Part shown: positions 31,536-35,152 of the stretch, one piece after another
Position numbering within the stretch: the first letter of the stretch is position 1
Layout of the letters: the number at the start of each line of letters is the position of its first letter
From: Kribbella amoyensis
Lineage (GTDB): Bacteria > Actinomycetota > Actinomycetes > Propionibacteriales > Kribbellaceae
DNA length: 64,000 bases
Assembly: GCF_007828865.1 (NCBI RefSeq)
Contig: NZ_VIVK01000001.1
Coordinates: 3,720,001 to 3,784,000, forward strand
Direction: 5' to 3'
Program-made: the position numbers and the translations under genes
Notes under the pieces: generated by a model
Seen by the model: the letters and a program-made list of their open reading frames with translations, nothing else
Databases searched by the model: none
What the model was told of the DNA's origin: nothing

Positions 31536-32162
31536 ATGAGCTTCACCGGGTTCCCGACCGCCGCGCTGGACTTCTACGACGACCTGGAGATGGACAACAC
31601 CAAGACGTACTGGACCGCGCACAAGCACGTCTACGAGGAGTCGGTGCGGGCACCGATGACGGCCCTGCTCGCCGCGCTCGAGCCCGAGTTCGGCGCGGCG
31701 AAGATCTTCCGGCCGTACCGCGACGTCCGGTTCGCCAAGGACAAGACGCCGTACAAGACCCACCAGGGCGCGTTCATCGCCTGTGGCCCGTCGACCGGCT
31801 GGTACGTCCAGCTCGGCGCGCCCGGAGTCCGGGTCGGGGCCGGGTTCTACGAGGCACCGGCCGATCGGCTGGCCCGGATCCGGGCCGCGATCGACGAGGA
31901 ACGGCGCGGCACCGAACTGGAGAAGGTGCTGGCCGGCCTGACCGCCGACGGCTGGACGGTCGGCGGCGAGAAGCTGAAGACCTCGCCCCGCGGGTACGAC
32001 ACCGGTCATCCGCGGATCGAGCTGCTCCGGCACAAGTCGATCACGCTGTCGAAGTCGTACGGATTCGAGCCGGTGATCCACTCCGCCGACCTGCTCGACC
32101 AGATCCGGACCGACTGGCGCGCCACCACCCCGTTCCTGGAGTGGATCACCGCCAACGCCTGA
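31536..32162 (+). CDS. DUF2461-family protein
   Basis: 208 residues. Family marks are FLDFYDDLEMDNTKTYW-like opening, RDVRFAKDKTPYKTHQGAF and the C-terminal WRATTPFLEWI. The family is widespread and uncharacterised. It starts 13 bp after the ANTAR gene and may be cotranscribed. Confidence 0.88.
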   Translation: MSFTGFPTAALDFYDDLEMDNTKTYWTAHKHVYEESVRAPMTALLAALEPEFGAAKIFRPYRDVRFAKDKTPYKTHQGAFIACGPSTGWYVQLGAPGVRVGAGFYEAPADRLARIRAAIDEERRGTELEKVLAGLTADGWTVGGEKLKTSPRGYDTGHPRIELLRHKSITLSKSYGFEPVIHSADLLDQIRTDWRATTPFLEWITANA

Positions 32163-32171
32163 GGCCATGCC

Positions 32172-33046
32172 CTAGTCGTCGAAGTCCTTGAGGATCCGGG
32201 CGATGTGGTCGCGGGTCTTGTTCGGCGGTGGGGCCGCGACGCAGAGGCCTCCATCGTCGCGGTGTACTGGTCCAGGTCCTCGAGCTTGTCCAGGTAGAGC
32301 GCACTGGTCAGGTGCTCGATGTAGACGATGTCCGGCAGGTCCTGCTCGGGGAACCGCAGGATGCTGTACGCACCGCCGGTGGCCGCGTGGCCACCGGACG
32401 AGAACGGCATCACCTGGAGCGTGACGTTCGGCGCGTGGGTCGCCTCGATCAGGTGCTCGAGCTGCAGCCGCATCGCCTTCGTGCCGCCGATCGGCCGGCG
32501 CAGCACCGACTCGTCCACGACCGCCCAGAGCCGGACCGGGTCGATCGCCCGGGTGAGCACCTCCTGCCGCTCGACCCGCAGGGTGACCCGCCGCTCGACC
32601 TCCTCGGCCGGGATCAGGCCGCGGCCGAGCTGGACGACGGCGCGGACGTACTCCGGGGTCTGCAGCAGGCCGGGGATGAACTGGAGCTCGTAGGTACGGA
32701 TCAGCTGAGCAGCGGCCTCGAGTCCGAGGTAGGAGTGGAACCAGCTCGGCAGCACGTCGCCGAAGCGGTGCCACCAGCCGGGGTTGTTCGCGTCCCGGGC
32801 GAGGGCGAGCAGGCGCTGCCGCTCCTCCTCGTCGTCCAGCCCGTACAACCGGAGCAGGTCGGCGACGTCGCGCTCCTTGAAGCCGACGCGGCCCAGCTCC
32901 ATCCGGCTGACCTTGGACTCCGAGGAGCGGATCTCCCAGCCCGCGTCCGCGCGGGTGATGCCGGCGGCCTCCCGCATCCGGCGAAGATGCGCTCCGAGGA
33001 TGATGCGAAGCGCTGTCGGCCCGCTTTGCGCGCCCGACTCCGTCAC
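32172..33046 (-). pseudogene. Scr1-type HTH regulator (XRE HTH + DUF5753) with frameshift near 32247
   Basis: GTG 33046 follows GGAGG by 5 nt. The N-terminal HTH is HLRRMREAAGITRADAGWEI...SKVSRMELG; the C-terminal DUF5753-like region includes SYLGLEAAAQLIRTYE, FIPGLLQTPEY and FSSGGHAA. Near 32246-32251 the frame breaks: as written the protein runs on nonsensically to 32006, inside the convergent DUF2461 gene. One extra G would restore the normal ending LCVAAPPPNKTRDHIARI...KDFDD at 32172. It is either a sequencing error or a recent inactivation. These regulators pair with DUF397 proteins in actinomycete development. Confidence 0.75.
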
Positions 33047-33600
33047 ACTCACCTCCGACGCCCCAGCTTCCGTCTCGATGACAGGTCTCCCCGTGCCCGA
33101 CAAATCATCGCACGCCGGCGACCCGATCTGCCGAACTTCTTACATTAGCCGCGCCCGGTCCACCACTCCTACTCCGCGCGCCCGCGCACGTGTACGCGCA
33201 AGACGTCGGTGTGACCCCGATGCCCGCGCGTGCCCGGACCGCCACAGGCGGTGGGTTCGAGCAGGTTCACGGACAGTGATGCTCCGGCCCCGCACACCCT
33301 AGCCCGTGAGCATCTTTGTCAGGACATATCAACCGCTTGAATCGCCCGGAATCGCGGGGATCGGCCGCTCCGGAGCCCGGATCTGAGGCGGCGGAGGCCC
33401 GTTCGGAGGTCACAACTGAAAAACGTGCGGATGCACGTGCATCGGGCGCTTGCATTCGCAGCGTGCCGACGCCATGATTGATTCATGCACAGAAGGTGAG
33501 CTGGATCTCGCGAAAAGTGACACCTGCGAGGTCCGGTAGGCCGGTTCTACAGACCGTCGGCAGTTCGCTGCCGACATGACTGGTTGGGGAACCCGAGTCG
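33047..33600. other. 554-bp intergenic region
   Basis: No gene is supported. It holds the promoter of the Scr1-type gene on one side, a lower-GC stretch near 33310-33350, and the 30-bp motif at 33431-33460 that also precedes the DUF397 gene. Confidence 0.6.
33431..33460. promoter_or_regulatory. ATGCACGTGCAT motif, copy 1
   Basis: The 12-bp perfect palindrome ATGCACGTGCAT (33431-33442), seven bases, then TTGCATTCGCA (33450-33460). Copy 2 at 34691 has the same parts with six bases between. About 140 bp upstream of the small-gene pair at 33601. Confidence 0.65.
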
Positions 33601-33795
33601 ATGAGCAACTACGACATCGAGCACGTCGAGGACAACAGCCTGAGCGCAAGCGGCCGGGCGCCCGACGAGCTGAGTGAGCGGGAGATCCAGGAACTGGTGG
33701 CGCGCTGCCCCGAGGAGCAGCGCTGGGCCTTCGAGGGCTGGCTGCGCGGCGTCCGCCAGCTCGATGGTGACCCCATCGTGAGCCTGACGCCATGA
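33601..33795 (+). CDS. Small acidic protein of unknown function
   Basis: 64 residues, strongly acidic, with helical stretch DELSEREIQELVARCPEEQRWAFEGWLRG. No family recognised; there is no signal peptide or membrane segment. Its stop overlaps the next start (ATGA), so the two are translationally coupled. The upstream region carries the ATGCACGTGCAT motif, linking it to the Scr1/DUF397 island. Confidence 0.65.
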   Translation: MSNYDIEHVEDNSLSASGRAPDELSEREIQELVARCPEEQRWAFEGWLRGVRQLDGDPIVSLTP

Positions 33796-34010
33796 CCACA
33801 GACCGAGCAGGAGGCCGAAAGATGGTGCGGATCTGGTTGGGGGACCACCTGATCGCCGAGTACGTCGCTGAGCCGGATCGGGCTTCGAAGTACCAGCGGG
33901 TGATGACCCCGAAGTTCACCGGGCTGCGCATCACCGTCGACAACGCGGCCGGTGGCTCGGCGTCCGAGCTCCCGCGCAGTGAGCAGCTCTGGCCGCTCAC
34001 GGTGCAGTGA
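33792..34010 (+). CDS. Small protein of unknown function coupled to the preceding gene
   Basis: 72 residues, neutral to slightly basic; VRIWLGDHLIAEYVAEP and FTGLRITVDN suggest a small beta-rich fold. I recognise no family. Coupled to the acidic 64-residue protein, it could be a partner that binds it. The stop is followed at 34066 by a hairpin and at 34114 by the tandem hairpin array that ends in an intrinsic terminator. Confidence 0.6.
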   Translation: MTTDRAGGRKMVRIWLGDHLIAEYVAEPDRASKYQRVMTPKFTGLRITVDNAAGGSASELPRSEQLWPLTVQ

Positions 34011-34065
34011 AGCCCTTGTTTTCTTACTGATCGACCGTTGGCCGGCCCAGTGATCGGGACCGGTC

Positions 34066-34083
34066 GACGGTGGCACCACCGTC
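34066..34083 (+). other. Short hairpin before the array
   Basis: GACGGTGG-CA-CCACCGTC, 8 bp perfect. It lacks the TCCTCA loop of the array and may be a separate element. Confidence 0.5.
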
Positions 34084-34113
34084 CCGCATGCCCGCGGGGC
34101 GTCCACCGAGAAG

Positions 34114-34282
34114 CCGTCCCCCTCCTCAGGGACGGTGAACCTCGAGCCGCTCTCCATCCTCAGGGAGTGGCAGTGCAGCAAGCCGACCCTCTCCTCAGGG
34201 GCCGGTGCGTCCGAAGGGCCGTCCCTGTCCTCAGGGGACGGCACAGCAAAAGGCCGTCTCCCTCCTCAAGGGGCGGCCTTTT
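34114..34282 (+). repeat. Five tandem hairpins with a conserved TCCTCA loop
   Basis: Hairpins at 34114-34135, 34147-34170, 34183-34205, 34218-34242 and 34248-34282 each have a CC-rich left arm, a loop containing TCCTCA and a GG-rich right arm. Stems differ (CCGTCCC/GGGACGG; CCGCTC-CC/GGGAGTGG; GCCGTCCC/GGGACGGC) but still pair, while the loop is constant. Spacing is 32-36 bp. The last hairpin is an intrinsic terminator. The region 34011-34427 holds no gene; it contains this array, the hairpin at 34066 and the terminator at 34376. It may be an untranslated RNA tail, a small RNA or a run of terminators. Confidence 0.8.
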
Positions 34283-34286
34283 GTTA
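34248..34286 (+). terminator. Intrinsic terminator ending the hairpin array
   Basis: AAAAGGCCG (34248-34256) pairs with CGGCCTTTT (34274-34282), followed by GTTA. It keeps the TCCTCA loop of the array. The T-rich arm marks it as the plus-strand stop for the small-gene pair. Confidence 0.75.
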
Positions 34287-34375
34287 TGCCCGCTGCCGAC
34301 AGCGGTCCGCCGGCCCGGTCAGGTCGTTCCGGGCGCCCTCGGCCCGGACCTGGCCCGCACTCGTCCGTAGACGCG

Positions 34376-34413
34376 AAGAGGCCCCCTCCCGCTCGCCCGG
34401 GAGGGGGCCTCTT
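34376..34413. terminator. Bidirectional terminator between array and DUF397 gene
   Basis: AAGAGGCCCCCTCCC (34376-34390) and its exact inverse (34399-34413), 8-nt loop. A perfect 15-bp stem bounded by AA/TT lets it act on both strands. It ends 14 bp from the DUF397 stop. Confidence 0.8.
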
Positions 34414-34427
34414 GCTTCGTTGATCGC

Positions 34428-34661
34428 TCAGGCGAGGTCGTCGAACTCGCCGTCGTGAACGCCGCCGAGGAAAGCCTCGATCTCGGCCTGGGTGAAGACC
34501 AGGGCCGGTCCGTCGGTGTGACGCGAGTTCCGCATCGCCACGCCGCCGCCCGGCAGCTTCGCTACCTCTACGCAGTTGCCGTTGGGGCCACTCCGCTGAC
34601 TCTTCCGCCAGTTCAGCTCGCTCATCGCGTCGCCGGGCATGCCGTTGTAGACAGCAGTCAT
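34428..34661 (-). CDS. DUF397-domain protein
   Basis: 77 residues from ATG 34661 (GGAAGG 8 nt upstream); ATG at MSELNW, 15 residues in, is the usual family start and an alternative. The domain is complete: LNWRKSQRSGPNGNCVEVA, VAMRNSRHTDGPALVFTQAEIEAFL. DUF397 proteins are small partners of Scr1-type HTH regulators and occur in many copies in actinomycetes, usually next to one. Here the likely partner, at 32172-33046, appears broken. Confidence 0.88.
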   Translation of the reverse strand: MTAVYNGMPGDAMSELNWRKSQRSGPNGNCVEVAKLPGGGVAMRNSRHTDGPALVFTQAEIEAFLGGVHDGEFDDLA

Positions 34662-35152
34662 CAGCTGCACCTTCCGTACGTCTTTGGCATATGCACGTGC
34701 ATTTGGGCTTGCATTTGCATCGTACACGGTTGTGGGCCGTGTGTCTGATCCAATACGCAGCGTCGCCGGGTCCCCGCCGGTCCTCGGCGTGGCGATCGCG
34801 GTGGGTGATGGAAATCGGCTCCGGCGCGCCGAAAACCGCGACTCGTCCGGCGTGCGGTTGAGAACGGAGCCGCCGGGGAATGACTGCACCTGGCGGTCTC
34901 GGGAGTCCTCGGGCAGCCGGCGCTGTACCGGCCGTCTGCAACGGTTCGCGCGGGGCCGTCCACGGCCGGCGGATCGGCCGACGAGGGCAGGAGTGGTGGC
35001 TTGCCGGATCGCCTTGATTTGTTGAGAAATCAGGCTTTTCGGATGGGCTCGTGCGGACACTCCGGGCCCCGCCGATCCGGGCGCCCGGCGGTTCGTGGAT
35101 GCACTACGATGACGAGCACCTTTTTCTTCCCTACGACACGAAGGCTGCGCCG
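34662..35152. other. 491-bp intergenic region
   Basis: No gene supported. It contains motif copy 2 with a -10-like TACGAT (34719-34724, minus strand) for DUF397, an AT-rich dyad GCCT-T-GATTT/AAATCAGGC plus TTTTC at 35011-35040, and TACGAT at 35105-35110 as the probable -10 of the DUF574 gene. Confidence 0.55.
34691..34720. promoter_or_regulatory. ATGCACGTGCAT motif, copy 2, at the DUF397 promoter
   Basis: ATGCACGTGCAT (34691-34702), six bases, TTGCATTTGCAT (34709-34720). It overlaps the -10-like TACGAT and lies 30 bp before the DUF397 ATG, where a bound protein would block transcription. Confidence 0.65.

Follow-up and report, generated by a model that had tools for sequence, protein, structure and literature searches.

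The window, a 64-kb stretch (64,000 nucleotides) of the Kribbella amoyensis genome, contains an operon of two small plus-strand genes, neither of which has a Pfam or NCBIfam family above cut-off. Gene 1 (33601..33795, +), an open reading frame of 64 aa, is the first gene of the operon and is conserved in Kribbella; its stop codon is overlapped by the start of gene 2 (33792..34010, +; 72 aa), which is 86-97% identical across the genus. Gene 2 belongs to a paralogous small-protein family with distant paralogues in its own genome (five further matches at 33-48% identity) and nine matches in genome G029. An XRE regulator (HTH_31 and DUF5753; 32160-33103) is adjacent to the operon, and a DUF397 gene (34428..34664, -; Pfam PF04149, E 6.8e-22) converges on it from the other side. 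A palindrome-containing sequence, TGCACGTGCAT-N(4-5)-GCTTGCATT, has exactly two copies in the 8.1-Mb genome, at 33432-33456 before gene 1 and at 34692-34715 before the DUF397 gene; the gene 1 site recurs in nearly all Kribbella loci, the DUF397 site in part of them. The XRE/DUF5753 regulator next to the operon probably uses this sequence as its operator, and since the sequence stands only before these two genes, both units are probably co-controlled by that regulator.

Between the two convergent transcription units, seven hairpins lie 3′ of the operon, followed by the terminator of the DUF397 gene (34376..34413, -), which is single-copy and served as a matched control. Folding and a five-species alignment delimit hairpin A (34034..34071, +; loop AGTGATC), 24 nt past the stop codon of gene 2, and hairpin B (34080..34101, +), 70 nt past it, whose stem is conserved and whose loop varies across the five species that carry the array. 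The array itself begins 103 nt past the stop codon and consists of H1 (34113..34136, +), H2 (34146..34171, +), H3 (34182..34206, +), H4 (34218..34242, +) and H5 (34253..34277, +; 34245..34285 with its A-tract and U-tract). As the original prediction had it, these are five tandem hairpins behind two coupled small genes, and all five loops share the core TCCTCA. They cover 34113-34277, with starts 33-36 nt apart (33, 36, 36, and 35 nt) and spacers of 9-11 nt. The longer loop CCTCCTCA, which had been attributed to most copies, is present in only two of the five (H1 and H5); H2 has CCATCCTCA, H3 CTCTCCTCA, and H4 CTGTCCTCA. The sequence TCCTCAGGG occurs four times in the window, each time inside the array. 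In addition, a 49-nt stretch that takes in a single spacer and portions of two hairpins repeats at a distance of 71 nt, which suggests that a two-hairpin unit was duplicated.

Both the hairpins and the TCCTCA copies are well in excess of shuffled sequence. Region 34108-34286 holds four hairpins with at least seven perfect pairs, against a mean of 0.57 and a maximum of three in dinucleotide shuffles (none of 1000 had as many), and five copies of TCCTCA, against a mean of 0.22 and a maximum of three. Folded alone, H1, H2, H4, and H5 are each more stable than their shuffles, with a folding z of -5.95 for the H5 region (34240-34290); H3, which has an A.C mismatch at pair 5, is not (z -0.63). In a survey of 864 kb of the same genome for adjacent similar hairpins, a weak search given its strict loop centring, 40 pairs or families were found, mostly GC-rich or repetitive in look, and because of that centring the array was recovered only as H1-H2.

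H5 is the operon's intrinsic terminator, in agreement with the original prediction. It combines a GC-rich stem of 16 pairs, AGCAAAAGGCCG...CGGCCTTTTGTT, with a U-tract, and it is alone in this among the five TCCTCA hairpins: H1 to H4 are followed by GAACC, AGTGC, GCGTC, and ACAGC, respectively, and so lack the U-tract of an intrinsic terminator. A strict terminator scan listed none of the array hairpins, H5 included, since the U-tract of H5 pairs with its A-tract and was therefore counted as stem. With both tracts, H5 is predicted to be symmetric enough to act from both sides.

Comparison within the genus places this arrangement in a narrow lineage. The operon is present in 37 of the 38 Kribbella genomes compared, and in 32 of these 37 a single ordinary terminator follows gene 2 at the same place (mostly 15-45 nt past the stop codon in the larger half of the genus). 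The remaining five species have the TCCTCA type: five hairpins in K. amoyensis and two in each of four relatives, where a penultimate hairpin without a U-tract, orthologous to H1, precedes an H5-type terminator at the equivalent place, with a period of about 35 nt as here. H2, H3, and H4 are thus extra copies in K. amoyensis. The five species, which also have hairpins A and B in common, form one clade nested among the single-terminator species (support 90/89). A covariance model of the TCCTCA unit, the check that the original prediction had proposed for conservation, matched only this locus in these five species within Kribbella (matches elsewhere in the genus, at E 0.03 or worse, were treated as chance) and again only the same five over 148 genomes of the order. 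A search for three TCCTCARGG units at the array spacing, run across a sample of 396 Actinomycetota genomes, revealed no further hairpin array; only two other genomes matched the pattern, one through a low-complexity CCTCCTCCTC repeat and the other through an AT-rich tandem repeat.

Other repeats are found at the same site in the genus. The corresponding intergenic region of K. monticola (L055) has an unrelated GCTCGACTCTGCTGTCT-type tandem repeat past the gene 2 terminator, and in L051 a GTAGCAGCA repeat lies ahead of the operon terminator; the intergenic region after gene 2 thus seems prone to repeat expansion. The L051 record is named Streptomyces sp. SID13031, a name that looks wrong, as the record falls inside Kribbella by its operon.

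That the drifting stems keep their pairing, as originally proposed, is supported across the clade. Among nine distinct hairpins, pairing is kept in 97.2% of cells and four stem pairs show compensatory changes, a number reached in one of 500 shuffles, in a stem-register alignment that was made manually by pairing from the stem base and leans towards structure. No covariation signal was obtained when the pairing partners were slid by one column. A MAFFT alignment gave just one compensated pair, as gap placement broke the register of H2. The K. amoyensis array taken alone offers less: its only fully compensated pairs are two in H2, alongside several G-U changes and the one mismatch in H3; the two further compensated pairs emerge only once the relatives are added. 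On these alignments, pairing in the array is under selection.

The loop requires more care. Its TCCTCA core is unchanged in ten distinct hairpins, and the six loop columns named beforehand are invariant across the five K. amoyensis copies (p 0.012). However, six invariant columns in a row somewhere in the hairpin are nothing unusual by permutation (p 0.17), since GCCG in the 5′ arm matches the loop core in constancy. The spacers between copies have no detectable similarity and could not be aligned; diverged spacers beside an unchanged core are what selection on the loop could also produce. Instructive here is the ordinary terminator of the DUF397 gene, one hairpin lying 100 nt beyond the array. 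Its loop is CTCGCC in 37 of 37 Kribbella species and 10 of its 15 stem pairs are compensated, so that a constant loop on a drifting stem is more pronounced in this terminator than in the array; these terminators were located by a pattern that included the loop, and all 37 loci matched and have arms that pair. Hairpin A behaves similarly, its AGTGATC loop, with a GATC core, being constant in five species while the stem changes. As far as these comparisons go, a constant loop with drifting stems is the usual behavior of single hairpins at this locus, and the pattern by itself does not indicate a loop-binding partner or a loop-binding RNA. The view of the array as a selected structured element therefore stands as regards its co-varying stems and their conservation in relatives, but loses the constant loop as a mark of such selection.

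Several accounts of the array can be set against these data. One holds that the hairpins are neutral tandem repeats, extra terminator copies that replication slippage on GC-rich palindromes created and that are still in decay, with compensation arising through template switching inside the palindromes and H1 to H4 idle. The unrelated repeats of L055 and L051 in the same intergenic region are in line with this, as are the change in copy number from two in four species to five here and the loss of one pair in H3. It is harder to reconcile with the penultimate hairpin, which lacks a U-tract in all five species and has changed in sequence while keeping its pairing, save for one pair in L009, or with spacers that have diverged past alignment where the hairpins have not, and we regard neutrality as unlikely, though it deserves serious thought. 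Coding is a far poorer proposal: an open frame of 110 codons on the plus strand does span the array and might encode a repetitive peptide, but it has no Pfam match, the relatives have just two units, and the spacings of 33, 36, 36, and 35 nt do not keep the frame, as one of them is not a multiple of three. We give this almost no credence. Nor does the minus strand, which the original prediction had considered for its ribosome-binding-like loops, offer a convincing alternative. Its TGAGGA-loop hairpins, with AGGA in each loop, could in principle sequester a GGA-binding protein as a sponge of the CsrB/RsmZ kind. However, CsrA (PF02599) was not found in the genome by a search that detected it in three control genomes, and the strong DUF397 terminator separates the sole minus-strand gene from the array, which makes a sponge very improbable.

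The likeness of the plus-strand loop to the anti-Shine-Dalgarno sequence raises the main rival possibility, namely a multi-hairpin RNA derived from the 3′ UTR, with pyrimidine loops for pairing to Shine-Dalgarno sequences, which would be the actinobacterial equivalent of the ar14/CcsR ("cuckoo") RNAs of alphaproteobacteria. In ar14, three hairpins carry the same CCUCCUCCC loop on stems that vary (PMC10746234, PMC3927594), and CcsR1-4 arise by processing of the 3′ UTR of a gene for a 71-aa protein (PMC8625941, PMC10253847). The array shares with ar14/NfeR1 and CcsR1-4 (RF02344, RF02791) its tandem hairpins with a constant pyrimidine loop and variable paired stems and a terminator at the end, and with CcsR its place behind a small-protein gene. 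No Rfam family matched in the window at gathering scores; the best sub-threshold match over H3-H5 was ar14 (RF02344; 27.4 bits, E 0.0027), which in the same search also matched all four array-bearing relatives, at 30.7-35.0 bits, but did not match any of 12 other Kribbella loci, and the CcsR1 model matched one relative at 19 bits. Structure prediction leaves the loop cores of H1 and H2 unpaired, and TGAGGA shows a mild enrichment ahead of start codons (8 of 529, against 1). These scores lie far below the gathering cut-offs of 58.8 for ar14 and 65.3 for CcsR1, however, and the alignments shown for the relatives draw part of their score from hairpins without TCCTCA (in L008 and L009, from the DUF397 terminator). 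The loop core is UCCUCA rather than CCUCCUCCC, and the anti-Shine-Dalgarno likeness, which holds for H1 and H5 with their CCUCC, is weakened by the loss of CCUCC in H2, H3, and H4, where pairing with AGGAGG falls to between -5.2 and -6.9 from -9.0 kcal/mol. Unlike the CcsR locus (CIN1), the operon has no cotranscribed DUF1127 small protein, and neither of its small genes has a family match; the array has no copies elsewhere in the genome, being confined to one locus in one Kribbella clade; and the constant loop recurs in the DUF397 control terminator. An RNA of this kind is accordingly doubtful, and we take the resemblance as a likeness of form, not membership. More speculative still is the idea that the Kribbella clade independently evolved a cuckoo-type RNA, in which a 3′ UTR of duplicated terminators with loops pairing to Shine-Dalgarno sequences would be cut out as a translational regulator. 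The actinobacterial 6C RNA (RF01066), a pair of hairpins whose loops are C-rich and which occurs in high-GC Gram-positives, is similar in form, but its model scored 20.5 bits where the gathering cut-off is 47, and the array has no C6 loops.

The terminator ladder, one of the options originally listed, fits the comparative data best: the array is predicted to be a hairpin-cluster terminator or 3′-end barrier that arose by tandem duplication of the operon's intrinsic terminator, a reading to which we assign a probability of about one half (0.52). Tandem duplication is the likeliest history. Comparison across the genus shows that the ancestral state was one terminator after gene 2; a dimer with the TCCTCA loop was present in the ancestor of the five species and grew to five hairpins in K. 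amoyensis, in a step order that we infer. The shared loop would then be mostly an inheritance from the duplicated ancestor, with pairing, not loop sequence, being maintained. H5, via its A- and U-tracts, would release RNA polymerase arriving from either side, while H1 to H4 may slow polymerase as hairpins without a U-tract or block 3′-5′ exonucleases, and so may protect the 3′ end and insulate the two convergent genes that share the operator-like sequence. Two co-expressed convergent genes need firm two-sided termination, which a symmetric terminator together with several strong hairpins fits.

Precedents exist for terminators of this type. Gupta and Pal (2021, PMC8355165) proposed that clusters of hairpins less than 15 nt apart after the stop codon serve as termination units, in which a U-tract is dispensable and which are frequent in GC-rich genomes, and structured 3′ ends without U-tracts were reported for Streptomyces clavuligerus (PMC8269248). 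The array resembles the former in its short hairpins 9-11 nt apart, and differs in that its members are paralogues, all copied from one terminator and with a loop in common. The I-shaped terminators of S. clavuligerus, transcript ends lacking the U-tract, are similar as GC-rich actinomycete hairpins, whereas H1 to H4 stand in tandem and lead up to a normal terminator with a U-tract. Several observations count against the terminator reading: H1 to H4 have no U-tract, the strict scan listed none of the array hairpins, the spacers have diverged while the loop core has not, and H1, unlike hairpins A and B, lies beyond the approximately 80 nt from the stop codon typical of the published clusters.

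Overall, the array is a real feature of one lineage, a terminator duplicated in tandem whose pairing has been kept, and is most probably a reinforced 3′ end; it gives no grounds for proposing a new type of RNA. It also advises caution, as a constant loop on a co-varying stem is by itself no sign of a functional loop when an ordinary terminator evolves alike. If its loops did pair with Shine-Dalgarno sequences, the locus would mark a way in which duplicating a terminator can lead to a regulatory RNA of several hairpins, and the cuckoo-type reading, if true, would show how such RNA families arise. What makes the array interesting is the copy-number series that nature provides, rather than any new RNA class: one, two, and five terminator hairpins stand at one orthologous site within one genus, a clean series that suits measurement of the effect of tandem hairpins on termination and 3′-end protection in a GC-rich actinomycete.
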